Below, in pieces: positions 26,323-46,201 of a DNA stretch of 64,000 nucleotides. Origin of the DNA: Deltaproteobacteria bacterium (GTDB lineage Bacteria; Desulfobacterota_D; UBA1144; Nemesobacterales; UBA2774). The stretch spans positions 1 through 64,000 of the forward strand of contig JAVKFU010000014.1 of NCBI GenBank assembly GCA_040223695.1, given 5' to 3'. Within the stretch, counting starts at the first letter, position 1. The number at the start of each line of letters is the position of its first letter. The notes under the pieces are model-generated. The model ran no database searches. It was not told where the DNA came from and saw only the letters and a program-made list of their open reading frames with translations. A program made the position numbers and the translations under genes.

Positions 26323-27045
26323 CTAGTTCCGGCTGAAATCGAGCGACATGCTCAAGCCCCTTATTGTGCCCGTTGCCTTTTGAAGGGCTTTATCGTCTTT
26401 GCTGAAAACAAACTCCGTTTTGAACTCGAAGTCGTTACTCCCTGAGACGGGCACGTCGCTCTTAAGATAATACAGGTATGTAAATTTCGTGGACTTGTCG
26501 GACTGCTCGGTGTCGTACGGCTGACCGAGCGTTTCTACGATATTCTCCATTTTTGGAATCTCGTCCGGATTATCTCCCTTGAACTCAGAGCTGGCGCTCT
26601 TTTTGAGCTTGCTTATATCCGCGTCTCCCATAGATGAAAACATTCTCTTTAAAAGCGGGATCGACAGGTTTTTCAGAAAGCGCTCCGGGAAGGTTATCTC
26701 CGCCACCATATCCTCCCGCATCACCATTAAAACAGGGATATCATATTCGCCGTTTTCATCATTTGAGAGCAGATACTGCTTCTCGAACACATAGGTCCAT
26801 AACTCCTCCCGCTCCTTCTCTTTTACAGAGTAAGGGCCGTTCTTCATGAGCCAGACCATATCGTCCGATTTGAGCACAGGATTGAGAAATACTAGAGTGA
26901 GCCCGCCTTCATCGTTAAGCTCGAAGTTTTCCTCAAATGATTTGAGCTGGTTCTGTACCTTGTGCAGTCTCAAAAACACGCAGCTCATTATGGGCAGAAT
27001 AATCGCGACCAATAAAACGGATGCTAATATGCGTCTGGGATTCAT
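26323..27045 (-). CDS. Hypothetical lipoprotein
   Basis: 240 residues from the ATG at 27045; AGGA precedes it, and an open frame upstream lacks a good start. The N-terminus MNPRRILASVLLVAIILPIMSC is a signal with a possible lipobox (IMSC). The rest is acidic and lysine-rich with no recognised domain; the C-terminal half has alternating strands (FKTEFVFSKDDKALQ), compatible with a periplasmic beta domain. It is convergent with the upstream importer. A candidate small RNA or leader with its own terminator lies 120 bases upstream on the same strand and could control it. Confidence 0.6.
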   Translation of the reverse strand: MNPRRILASVLLVAIILPIMSCVFLRLHKVQNQLKSFEENFELNDEGGLTLVFLNPVLKSDDMVWLMKNGPYSVKEKEREELWTYVFEKQYLLSNDENGEYDIPVLMVMREDMVAEITFPERFLKNLSIPLLKRMFSSMGDADISKLKKSASSEFKGDNPDEIPKMENIVETLGQPYDTEQSDKSTKFTYLYYLKSDVPVSGSNDFEFKTEFVFSKDDKALQKATGTIRGLSMSLDFSRN

Positions 27046-27167
27046 ATAAATAATCCTGTCAAATAAACTAGGTTTTGTTTGTAGAGAAAAACAATTTAAA
27101 GAATACCTTACTTGAAAATTTCGTGCGGCTTTCAAATATTCTCTGACTCTAAATGACAGGCCTCAAA

Positions 27168-27258
27168 TGCAAAAACGGGAGTAATTCTCAGTTTAAGAAT
27201 TACTCCCGTTCTCTTAAAGGAGGATGGAGGATGATTTTAAGTGCGATGTTTAATTTTA
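27168..27258 (-). ncRNA. Candidate small RNA or attenuated leader with anti-Shine-Dalgarno motif
   Basis: On the minus strand a consensus promoter (27293-27265) predicts a start near 27258. The transcript would run through a C/U-rich unpaired stretch with two CCTCC blocks (27235-27211) and end in a perfect 15-base-pair hairpin followed by a short U run. Length is about 90 bases. No open reading frame with a ribosome binding site lies in it on this strand. It may act in trans on ribosome binding sites or be a prematurely terminated leader of the lipoprotein gene at 27045. On the plus strand the same bases read like ribosome binding sites before tiny frames (9-11 codons). Confidence 0.4.
27174..27210 (-). 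terminator. Perfect 15-bp hairpin, intrinsic terminator (minus strand)
   Basis: Arms 27174-27188 and 27196-27210 are exact complements around a seven-base loop. On the minus strand the stem is followed by T residues (27175-27171, the first two in the stem). There is no T run on the plus side, so it acts leftward. Confidence 0.6.
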
Positions 27259-27264
27259 TAATAT

Positions 27265-27293
27265 AAATTAAAGTACGATACTTTAAATGTCAA
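27265..27293 (-). promoter_or_regulatory. Sigma-70 promoter with palindromic operator in the spacer
   Basis: Minus strand: perfect TTGACA (27293-27288), 17-base spacer, TAATTT (27270-27265). The spacer is filled by a perfect palindrome TTAAAGTA-cga-TACTTTAA (plus strand 27268-27286), an ideal place for a dimeric repressor. Confidence 0.5.
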
Positions 27294-40881: not shown

Positions 40882-43800
40882 CTAAGTTCTAATTCTCAAC
40901 CGTCTCCGTATAAACACACCCGCGGGTATCAGAGCGTAAACGAGCAATCCGGCCAATCCGCCTTTAACGCCTCTATCTCCTGATATGGCGCACGAGCTGT
41001 CGCTTCCGGCGTCAGCGCTGTCACCGACACCGCTGTCATTTACATTATCCAGAAAATCGGGCACTCCGTCACCGTCCGTATCCGGCAGCGGAAGTAAAAT
41101 TCCTCCCTGATCAGGATCATACGCGTCGTTAAGCCCGTCTCCGTCCGCGTCCGAGAAATTATCCGCTATGCCGTCTCCATTGGCGTCATCAGTCCCCCCG
41201 GCCTCGAAGTGGTCCGTAAGTCCGTCTCCGTCCGAGTCAAGATCGAGCTCATTAGGTATGCCGTCCCCGTCGGGGTCCGCCGGTATTTCCAGGCGTGTCG
41301 ATGTCAAAGAGCTGATTCCGTTCGTGGCGGTTTCCGTACCGTCCGGAATCCCGTCATTATCGGAATCGGCGTCAATAGCATCAGGCACGCCGTCCCCGTC
41401 CTGGTCCACGGTATCCACAGGAGGCTCGGGCGTATTGACGGGGGGCTCGGGCGGACCAGGTACCCCGCCACCCGGAGATCCTTTTACTTTGCAGAACATA
41501 GCGTCAGGGGTCGGAAGGTCAAAGCACTCCTGCCCTGCCAGGTCCGCCGGGACTTTAAGCCACGGCACATTCCAGTCGCCGTCGTTAGGGAAACACACGG
41601 GCTGTGGACGGCGGTCGACGTCGTCTGCGACAAAGCTGTCAGGCATAGTTATTCCAAATCCCAGACACCGGGGAACCATCTGACCGCCAACATCAAACAC
41701 AGGACAGTCCGGATCGTTGCCCGACCATCTGCAGATATCTATCCTCTGGCACTCGGCGTATAGATCAGGGTCGTCAATTTTTAACTGATCAGAGCACTGG
41801 CAGCTGTTACTTTTAAACTCACAGAAGCTTATCGGCTTACAGCTCTCTTCCTTTGCTTTATCGAAGTTTTGTTTAAATTCATTCATATCCACAGTAATGC
41901 TCAATATTCCCGTGCTACTGTTGTACTCTCGTTCCCATGAGGAAGGCCATCCACCGGGAATATTGTCGAATTGGACAGCCAGGTTTGCAATGTTTGTCCG
42001 AACTGCATTTACAATTTGGGGGTTGTCCTCATCAATACTGTCATCCTGTCCCACATAGAATTGATATGTCTGTCTAATCTCCGGCTTTGCAAAAATTAAA
42101 AATGTGTAATATGTTTCGTTAGCTTTAAATTTATTTCTCAGTGGGAAACTGTCCTGTACTTGATTTCTGGTTGTGTCTATATAGTAATTAGCATTATTAG
42201 CCGTAAGGTTGATTCTTCCCGATATAGCAGGCCCCATCATACGTATCTCGGTATCAGGATTAGCTTCCATTTCTTCGGGACCCGTCAGAAACTGACGTAT
42301 GAGAGGCACACCGTAGCAGCCTGCAGTGCAGTTAGTAGTCCAATCGGCTCCGCAACCCTGTCCGCAGCCCGGGTATATAACAGTCGATACATACTCATAG
42401 GGGCTGGTTTTAGCTGTAGCATCGGAACGACACTGGAACTGTTCAATAGGAGCGCCAAAAAACGGGTCTTCATTGACCGAGATAGTTTTCTTTACGCCGG
42501 TAAGTGAGCCGTCGTCATCGTTCAAAATCGTCTGGCGGTCTATCGCAGTCCAGCCTTGAAAGCTTGCGGAGTTATAAACACAGTAATTCTCTTTTACAGC
42601 CGGGAAATCAGTATTGAATGTGCCGGGCTCAAATAGAGGTTCTAGAACAAAATGCCTGATATCTACATTCTTAAAGTACAAGTTGTCGGAATGAAAAGCG
42701 GGAGGATAATAGAAACCGTTTGGCTGCTTCCACGCTATAGCGGCGTTGGGCAGTATGCAATTATCTTTAACCACGCGTTTTACATCGTTTCCGTTTATAA
42801 CTTCTTCAACGTCTCTCGGTACACCGAGCACTCTTCCGTACATCCAGTCACTGTCACTACATGTACCGTTTTTCTCCGGTGTGCAATCAGTGACGTCAGT
42901 CTTTGTAATATCCAGATAAGCGTTTGAGCTCTGGTTAGCGGGTCCGTCATAGATATTGAAAAGGCGCTGATTCATAGCGAAGTTACTGAGCGGCATACTG
43001 ATACCTTCGTTGACGGAAAGACAGTAATTATTATCAGATATAGGATTCTCACAACTGAGTCCGCCTTGGCTGAAAGGTCCGGCATTGGATGAGAATGGAT
43101 TTCCATCCTCAGTGTTGCCTATGAACACATTCTTAGCCGCCAGCATAAAGCTTCCTGGCAGTAGTGAGGACTGGGTATAATCGCCCCCTGTAACAAAGGT
43201 TAGACCAGCGCCTAGGACATTCGTTATAGCGCTGTTTATTACAGTGAAAAAGGCCCGCCTCAGCCAGATAGCTGAAAAGTTAGTCTCAGTCCAGTTAAAT
43301 GCGGATGTATAGCGGTCAAGCACAGTAACTGCACAGTTATCAACATTATCACCTGAGCACTCAGGGACAGTACTGCAATCCGTGCCACTGCATATTGTAG
43401 CGTTTGGATTAGCCGAATATCTTGGGTAGTAGAATTCATTTGCACTATCAATATCGCCAACCAAGCTAAGGGGTGGAGCAGGAGCAAGAAGATTTGGAAC
43501 GGGTTCAATTTTAACCGATCCCCCAATACCGACTCCCTCACAAGGAGTTGTGCTCACAGTTGCGTTATAAGAATTCATAGCTGTTGAACAGTAATTACCT
43601 TTAAACTTTTTTATTGGAGCTGTTGCGGAACGACCAGGGTTGGGTTTAATCGAAGCATAAGACTCCCACTTTTGTCTCCTGGAAGGTCCGCTTACCGCTA
43701 CGTTTACAGCCCAGTAGCATGCTCCGCATGCGGTTGCGCCAGCAGCCATGTTGTACTCAAGATCATTCCATCCGTTTGTAAACCAAAATACTGTTGGCTG

Positions 43801-46137
43801 CATATAGTCAGAGTATGAAGTAATCAAGTTTCCGTTAGTTAGTAACGGTCTTGATGGTGCTGCAGCTAGAATCCCGGGAACTTCACGGGGATTTTGCGTA
43901 TTTTTGACTGCGGCTCGCGCAAGAATTCCGAGATTGGAATAGAGCTTGTTGTTAATCTCAGTACCATCCTCAAGATAATAACCATGTCCGATTGACATGA
44001 AGCCCACGTTTCTGGCGAGCGTGACTTCCTGTGTCCCGTGAAGGGTTACCCAGCGGGTCATGGAGTCGTGTATGGAGCTATCTTTTACAAACGCGCCGGG
44101 AGACTTCCTGAGAAGATGTAAATGCGCAGGATAACGCCCTTTGCGCCCTCCCTGACCGAGCTGATAAAACTCGACGCCCTGGATCTCAAGCGACTTGACA
44201 CCCTGTCTGGCCATCATGTGTCCGCCGAAGTAATTGCCCGGCGTAGGGGGACCGAAATCTTCCCCAATGTTGTCGCCCCCGGAAACTATACGAATGCTTC
44301 GGCTAAGCAATGCAACTGCAGCCCTGGTCTCTACAGCAGGTTCTCCGTCAACATTTATATCAAGATTTAAACGGCCAGGGACTCCTTCCAGCGAATACGT
44401 TTTGCCATTATGCGGATACTGCAATCCCCCGGGTATTTCCGCGTTAGTGTGCGGGTCGAGCACCTTAAAATCGAATTGCCTGTTGCCTGTTTTACCGGTA
44501 ATTTCGAGCTTCTCGGAGTGACCGGGTAAATAGTCGGTTGTTGTTATCACGATATGATCGCCAACATCCCAGTCTACATCTCTATCAAGAGTTAAGCTTG
44601 TAGCCCCTTTAGGTAATATCCCGTCTACATTTAACCTCGCCCAGCTTGTGCCGGAATGGGATGACGGAAGGTCGCTAAAAGTAGCCCCTTTCTTGCCGTA
44701 CATCTGGAGAGTTCCGCCGAAGGAAACAGCGAGTACTTTTGAGCCGAAAAACCCGGTCTCACCGCTTACAGGGTCAGGCGCCATATACTCATAGAAGCAG
44801 TCTGTTGTTCCGTCGGGTAAAACGCTTGTCTGACAGGATGACGGGTTTACCGTATTCATAGGATTGACAGTAACGTCAATCCCGCACATTGCATCGGTTT
44901 TACACTCTATGCCCGCTTTATCGTCTTTGCTGCCGTAGAGATGAATAGTTAAAGTGCCGTTATTGCCGATAGGGTTAGCAGGGCTGCCGGCAATGAGGCT
45001 GCTGTCCTTTTCTATAAGGATTGACTTGGCCCAGAAATCTATATCTGCGTCCATGAACTCAAGCGTGCCGCCGTTATAAATATTAACGTTCCTGTAATGA
45101 TAGGTGCCCGCACCCACCATGCAGTTGCCGGTTACCTCAAGGTCATCAGGATCCCCGGCGTTCCCCGGAGGAAGATTGCCGCTGCATGTGAAGACAGCTC
45201 TCGTGCTTACTATATCCTTAGCCTGATTTTCTCCGCCCGAAGTTGTTTTGGTTCCTGCGGCAAGCGTCCCGGTCAACTGGGCTCCTGAAAATTCAGCGCC
45301 TGTCGTGTCCGCGTTCTCCAGATTAGCCTGAAGGAGGTTAGCGTCTGTCAAATCCGCATTAATTAAAATTGCGCCTGATAAATTAGCGCCTGATAAATCC
45401 GCACCCTTTAAGTTGGCCCGGCTGAGATCGGCGTCTCTAAGCTCCGCCCCGCTCAGGTCGGCCTCGCTCAGGTCTGAGTCAACCAGAATCGCATCGTTAA
45501 GTATGGCCTCGCTGAGGTCAACTCCGCTCAGATCGGCCTTATTCAGATTAACCCCGCGCAGGTTACACCCTGCGCATTTATTGGTGTCCAGAAACGTGGC
45601 TACATCGTCCGCCGCCTCATCGGTCGTCGTATTGAGTATCGACTTGTCGCCTTCGGGAATTATAAAAACCGTTATTCTCTTATCAGATTTCCCGTCGTGA
45701 TAGAGGCTCATCCTGTAATCTCCGGGCTCTATCAGCTCTGTCACGCATTCCCCGTTCGCGGTTACAGTCAGTATTTCGTCTCCCTCACTGTCGGAAAGGG
45801 TCGTGTGATGCTCCGCATCCCCATTATCGTCCCGCCAGCAGAACACACGCTCTGTCGCCTCGGCATACCTGTAAGGTATGACATCAAATCCTGCGCCGCC
45901 CGTGTCGCCGTCTTCCGCCTTCGACCCCGGAGGCTCCAGAAACACAACCACGATGTCGCTCTCGGGAGCGGCTGATAAATCCCCGTCTTCCGCAAACTCC
46001 GCTTCCGTACGAGTTCCCTCGGAGTCATCCGGCTTACCGCTTACAGTCTTGTTAAAATTGAAAGGTCCAAATAGAAAGAAAATAATTAAAGAAGGAACAA
46101 TTATAAAAAACGGGACGTAATTTTTAATCCTCTGCAT
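40882..46137 (-). CDS. Giant surface protein: pentapeptide repeats, CEMIP/TMEM2-like G8 and beta-helix, TSP3 repeats, C-terminal sorting tail
   Basis: 1751 residues. A membrane-spanning signal (about 8-28) is followed by an acidic linker, pentapeptide repeats (about 192-282, A(D/N)LSGA type), a G8 domain from about 349 and a right-handed beta-helix. The helix contains [20 protein letters not shown] near 673, then [12 protein letters not shown] and [14 protein letters not shown], closely like CEMIP and TMEM2. A Cys-rich C-terminal third leads to thrombospondin type 3 repeats (about 1577-1700, DGDGVPD units). The tail has SSCAIS near 1714, a hydrophobic span and RRRLR. I chose the ATG at 46137: AAGGAGG touches the ATG three codons earlier, leaving no spacing. 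Confidence 0.82.
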
Positions 46138-46201
46138 ATGTATCATCCTCCTTTAAAGCTTCTGGCACAGAGTTACGGGCTTATGATAGCTGACGACCTA
46201 A

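Follow-up and report, generated by a model that had tools for sequence, protein, structure and literature searches.

A predicted multi-copy family of anti-Shine-Dalgarno small RNAs in Candidatus Dadabacteria with an operator common to type II secretion operons

In this work we describe a conserved, multi-copy family of predicted small RNAs (sRNAs) in the uncultured phylum Candidatus Dadabacteria, one member of which lies in the 64,000-nucleotide stretch of DNA that was analysed (hereafter the window), part of a genome of 3.03 Mb (G000). From comparison of its copies we hold with high confidence that the predicted family is real, and we are equally confident, as far as the DNA facts go, that its operator is common to type II secretion operons. 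The whole is best explained, in our opinion probably correctly, by an operator-controlled anti-Shine-Dalgarno (anti-SD) sRNA that would be co-regulated with secretion and would damp the synthesis of proteins whose mRNAs carry a strong Shine-Dalgarno (SD) sequence. The family is apparently undescribed so far: a literature search turned up neither a paper on Dadabacteria sRNAs, although this does not prove that none exists, nor a report of an sRNA family with an operator almost exclusively common to type II secretion operons.

All parts of the window element lie on the minus strand. The promoter of the original prediction, TTGACA-17-TAATTT, is present at 27293-27265, with the -35 box at 27288-27293 and, after a spacer of 17 nt, the -10 box at 27265-27270. 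In the alignment set of 64 distinct copies, the window copy included, TTG of the -35 box is invariant and A4 and C5 are kept in at least 90%; the -10 box of sister copies reads TATATT or TATTTT. The palindrome said to fill the spacer was found at 27268-27286 (operator 1, 19 nt, TTAAAGTA-TCG-TACTTTAA, the predicted 'cga' being the plus-strand reading of TCG), and its last 3 nt overlap the -10 box. Its family consensus, TTAAGT-N5-ACTTWA, is conserved in the 64 copies as well as in the gspC and gspL promoters. The same palindrome recurs at about +5 to +21 (operator 2, TTAAACATCGCACTTAA, 27237-27253), with a 5' half that is weak in the window copy and with the perfect form, TTAAGTNNNNNACTTAA, in many sister copies. 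The 17-bp palindrome TTAAGT-N5-ACTTAA is present twice at the sRNA promoter, the two centres being 32 bp, or three helical turns, apart. Operator 2, the multi-copy family and the operator common to type II secretion operons had all escaped the original prediction.

Operator 2 was also considered as an RNA hairpin and rejected, as 77% of cells are paired, which is not above shuffles, with no covariation. Since operator 2 shows no such covariation and operator 1 falls outside the predicted transcript, the two are best interpreted as DNA targets of a single dimeric protein. Their position suggests repression, with activation as the alternative. Of the repressor control proposed originally, the operator part stood, with two sites instead of one; the word 'repressor' rests on operator position, and the search for a regulator described below found none.

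The predicted sRNA of about 90 nt (94 nt, 27165-27258) is taken to start 7 nt past the -10 box. Its core, TCATCCTCCATCCTCCTTTAAGA (27212-27234), is a near-invariant, unpaired double anti-SD block with CCTCC at 27230-27226 and 27223-27219; it contains CCUCCUUU, which we take to be the anti-SD of 16S rRNA, and the second CCUCC precedes this motif. The core is followed by a Rho-independent terminator (27171-27210), consisting of the perfect 15-bp hairpin that had been predicted (27210-27174) together with a run of five T (27175-27171), of which the first two close the hairpin. The predicted RNA fold reaches -27.2 kcal/mol against -9.7 ± 2.8 for shuffles (z -6.2). A lipoprotein-like gene (26323-27045, minus strand) has its ATG about 125 nt past the terminator; it is a neighbour of the sRNA and only a candidate member of the same unit.

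Several lines of comparison argue that the element is beyond chance. A 221-bp blastn query found similar DNA in 28 of 41 genomes, mostly in several places per genome, and each match spans the block from -35 box to terminator, whole or in part. The covariance model built from the 64 copies and run on 58 Dadabacteria genomes gave 66 matches of at least 62 bits in 28 of them, with 1-5 sibling copies per genome; the window sRNA scored 92.4 bits (E 1.9e-21), its own copy being among the 64 training sequences. In genus g10 each of 14 genomes (1.3-1.9 Mb) has a single weaker match, scoring 35-49 bits, and the g10 copies that were read have another terminator and keep TTGACA (one TTGTCA), operator 1 and CATCCTTCATCCTCC. 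Family f5 is represented by a single weak, divergent copy (G023, L197), and in family f8 the model found no copies or doubtful ones.

Conservation is confined to the element. At 15 orthologous loci, the sequence immediately flanking the element has an identity of only 0.2-0.6 with the window copy; the value rises abruptly to 0.99 at the -35 box, remains at 0.99-1.0 over the core and falls again past the terminator. Between variable flanks the core TCATCCTCCATCCTCCTTTAA is near-invariant in the 64-copy alignment, and the CCTCCATCCTCC block within it has a mean unpaired probability of 0.92 over all copies. The terminator is the one consensus hairpin of the family, and 8 of its 9 consensus pairs show compensatory changes (133 double-change cells, compared with 38 ± 11 after shuffling and 9-37 with the partner strand slid). 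An ACUUAA/UUUAAG stem holding the core in its loop, 91% paired with 0 compensatory changes, is possible and unproven. A search of Rfam 15 at gathering score gave only a tRNA in the window, and at E up to 5 all further matches were sub-threshold. Family, core and terminator covariation are read from the sequence, and the covariation suggests minus-strand transcription. The CCTCC blocks and the hairpin kept in relatives are what the original prediction of a trans-acting anti-SD sRNA of about 90 nt had called for, and they support it; the element has its own promoter, a Rho-independent terminator, a conserved single-stranded CCUCC-type seed and no conserved ORF.

Some copies combine an intact core with different promoters and terminators. 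In L019, L020 (f7) and L042 (G029) the operators are decayed or degenerate and the core is intact, so the link to secretion does not extend to every copy. Elements that have a terminator and a CCTCC core, or a sequence related to that core, and lack the double operator were noticed at L192, L193 (G029), L194, L196 and L201, the last three of which are near an acyl-CoA dehydrogenase-like gene; L192-L194, L196 and L201 possibly form a second, differently controlled class of anti-SD sRNA.

The surroundings of the copies bear on whether the element is a free-standing gene or, as had been proposed alternatively, the attenuated leader of the lipoprotein gene. An attenuator, or a regulated leader whose terminator is read through under some condition, would agree with the nearest downstream ORF being co-oriented in 45 of 64 copies and with its conservation at each of three orthologous loci of family f1, where the sRNA stands before the lipoprotein gene (the window copy, with the lipoprotein orthologue in most of the family), an SCO1-like gene and a rhodanese-like gene, the latter two names being our assumption from sequence. 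However, these downstream genes are unrelated, the ORF is convergent in the other 19 copies, and two genomes carry tandem copies (L023, L035), so that a common attenuation target can be excluded as the general function. Alternative pairings that were tried show no covariation, and the model leaves the anti-SD core without a role. The lipoprotein leader is disfavoured for the same reasons, and we consider attenuation quite improbable. It is scarcely credible that the conserved block is instead a short plus-strand coding or ribosome binding element (AAAGGAGG-7-ATG). Its reverse complement does read as a perfect SD with an ATG at ideal spacing, but the frames past this ATG are short and differ among copies, and the sigma70-like promoter, the covarying terminator and the U run all indicate the minus strand.

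To follow the operator, the 58 genomes were scanned with a degenerate pattern comprising the promoter and both sites. It matched in 28 genomes, with 0 matches for the reversed-pattern control, and the matches inspected were almost exclusively sRNA, gspC and gspL sites. Apart from those at the sRNAs, a single additional double-operator site, different in type, is present in about 20 genomes; the ones that were retrieved lie directly before a protein of about 310 aa, the ATG falling 0-5 nt past operator 2. In G000 this protein is T2SSC (GspC) by Pfam, the next gene encodes the secretin (GspD), and genes reading as gspE to gspK follow. A further site precedes gspL-gspM-gspN-like genes in G000, and G004 and G008 likewise have a further double-operator site before gspL. 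The domains found directly behind the operator are those of gspC, gspD, gspL and gspM: PF11356, PF00263 and PF12693 are above cut-off, and PF04612, at 26.4 against 27.8 bits, is just below it. With a one-operator promoter pattern at 0-1 mismatch, exactly five places are found in G000, namely three sRNAs, gspC and gspL; at 2 mismatches the pattern gives noise. Genus g10 has weak GspC matches, and two of its gspC promoters that were inspected show no clear operator, though the g10 sRNA keeps operator 1. A double-operator-like promoter of slightly different form was seen at L068:845-931 (G032:C37), before a GTG-started ORF of 144 aa.

No recurring regulator gene was found beside the sRNA loci, nor an obvious one beside the gsp operons of G000. 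A MarR-model search led to a DtxR-family repressor with a FeoA domain in most sRNA-bearing genomes and to nothing in the class-sister family f8, where the sRNA is also missing; examples are L303:586-1263 (G000:C18:364785-365462), L302 and L306. In two cases read, the region upstream of this gene carries a TTTAGACTAGACTAAA-like palindrome and not TTAAGTN5ACTTAA. Because its own promoter bears a different palindrome, the DtxR-family protein is only a weak lead; autoregulation is usual, not obligatory, and DtxR/MntR is weakened as the regulator rather than excluded.

As for possible targets, the reverse complement of the core, TTAAAGGAGGATGGAGGATG, looks like an ideally formed ribosome binding site (RBS) complete with ATG. 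The strongest predicted target in the window is a gene at 40882-46146 (minus strand), whose RBS, TTTAAAGGAGGATGATACATATG, is a near-perfect complement of the core. Its duplex energy, -20.7 kcal/mol, is the best of 38 window ORFs (median -7.7). The product, of up to 1754 aa, has CEMIP beta-helix, G8 and pentapeptide repeat domains and an N-terminal hydrophobic, signal-like stretch; its C-terminus was seen to be hydrophobic and basic. In 16 genomes of family f1, RBSs resembling the complement of the core belong mostly to signal-peptide proteins, and the returns of this search include IPTL-CTERM-like proteins (one above model cut-off) and PstS-like proteins. The textbook SD AAAGGAGG at 7-nt spacing, taken as one pattern, is rare in the same genomes (about 1-7 per genome) and stands mostly before exported proteins. 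Signal-like products were encoded by 22 of 30 strong-SD genes, compared with 67 of 170 in the background (p 5.5e-4), as judged by a hydrophobicity heuristic with a generous criterion and with orthologous genes that are not independent, so the target set is statistically weak. All 8 genes with AAAGGAGGATG were signal-like, compared with 14 of 22 with an equally strong SD and no ATG extension, and the gain is not significant (p 0.055); target specificity beyond a plain strong SD is suggestive. About a third of the strong-SD control genes are cytosolic. In other bacteria GlyGly-CTERM-type C-terminal sorting tags mark cargo of the type II secretion system, according to two reports (PMC6219818, PMC13393428). 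As such tags belong to type II cargo elsewhere, export of IPTL-CTERM-like or otherwise C-terminally tagged proteins by the Dadabacteria system is by analogy plausible.

Neither gspC nor gspL has an SD sequence, as their starts read, and their duplexes with the core reach only -3.4 and -5.6 kcal/mol. From these observations we infer a scheme extending from transcription of the sRNA, through its repression by a regulator, to silencing of targets and a physiological role. A free-standing gene would give rise to a trans-acting sRNA of about 90 nt, one of 1-5 siblings per genome. A putative dimeric protein would bind both TTAAGT-N5-ACTTAA sites, the one in the -35/-10 spacer and the one shortly past +1, which lie on the same side of the helix, and would most likely repress transcription. 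With the same double site governing the gspC and gspL(M,N) operons, sRNAs and secretion machinery may rise and fall together; in G000 such a circuit would join up to three sibling sRNAs with two type II secretion operons. The sRNA would expose, before the terminator hairpin, AUCCUCCAUCCUCCUUUAAG, an unpaired and doubled mimic of the 16S anti-SD tail, which could pair with an SD where this is strong (AAAGGAGG, with AAAGGAGGAUG as the best case) and block translation initiation. The gspC and gspL mRNAs contain no SD and would start no more than about 25 nt from the end predicted for the transcript, and the first genes of these operons would for this reason be immune to the co-induced sRNAs. The gspC operon is not immune throughout, as gspG inside it is preceded by a clear SD in the majority of the genomes that were read.

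Of these steps, action by anti-SD pairing is likely. That the sRNA serves secretion homeostasis is plausible, and we advance it tentatively. In such a regulon, confined to the phylum and made up of about five promoters per genome, SD-less machine genes would be immune and strong-SD cargo, IPTL-CTERM-type surface proteins included, would be silenced, with differential SD use as the addressing code; the net effect would be secretion machine up, and synthesis of cargo or other exported proteins down. This fuller circuit, too, is a minority expectation on our part. The same sRNA could also be a broad translation damper for growth or stress arrest, pairing with all strong SDs and letting the SD-less gspC and gspL escape. 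The core indeed matches any AAAGGAGG, and both the insignificant contribution of the AUG match and the cytosolic share of the control genes speak for it. Nevertheless, strong SDs are so rare and so enriched among exported proteins that mainly these would be affected, and the operator is common to secretion genes only, for which reasons broad damping seems unlikely. Very improbable in our estimation is an RNA that acts as a decoy, titrating 30S subunits or a protein instead of pairing with mRNA. A near-invariant block of 20 nt is more than a single 7-8-nt seed needs, and the motif does mimic the 16S 3' tail; yet pairing sRNAs are typically built with a C/U-rich block left exposed next to the terminator, and no protein-binding motif was identified.

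The operator-controlled anti-SD sRNA offers a compact regulon open to testing in a phylum whose regulation is uncharacterised, and it suggests that the strength of the SD can set apart the mRNAs that a set of sRNAs reaches. A single copy persists even in the smallest-genome genus having the sRNA, which implies strong selection. The bacterium probably tunes the making and the exporting of secreted proteins together.

Several known systems resemble parts of this arrangement. RsaE/RoxS (RF01820) is also a C-rich anti-SD sRNA with a weak Rfam resemblance; at 15.6 bits, compared with a gathering score of 79 (E 2.3), the Dadabacteria sRNA is not a member. At E. coli marO the MarR dimer has two sites, in the -35/-10 spacer and past +1, and the Dadabacteria sRNA promoter has the same two-site arrangement with a different sequence. 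MicA and RybB are SigmaE-dependent envelope sRNAs. They share the proposed logic, in which sRNAs controlled together with an envelope function lower the synthesis of exported proteins, and differ in promoter control, seed and cargo, the Dadabacteria promoter being sigma70-like. 'Cuckoo' and CcsR RNAs are concepts related to anti-SD sRNAs. Closest are alpha-r14/NfeR1 and the AbcR sibling sRNAs of alphaproteobacteria, likewise small trans-acting RNAs with an ultraconserved unpaired CCUCC and variable stems. NfeR1 (alpha-r14) silences ntrB by means of CCUCCUCCC anti-SD motifs, covering its RBS, as well as mRNAs of periplasmic transport proteins (PMC10746234). Membership in the alpha-r14/cuckoo RNAs was considered and rejected, as these are defined by three hairpins, each with CCUCCUCCC (PMC10746234), whereas the Dadabacteria sRNA has a single hairpin, the terminator, and its double motif is unpaired. 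It also comes from a phylum unrelated to that of the rhizobia and has a different promoter. By analogy, alpha-r14/NfeR1 are the nearest described RNAs, and the Dadabacteria sRNA probably works in a similar way without being one of them.
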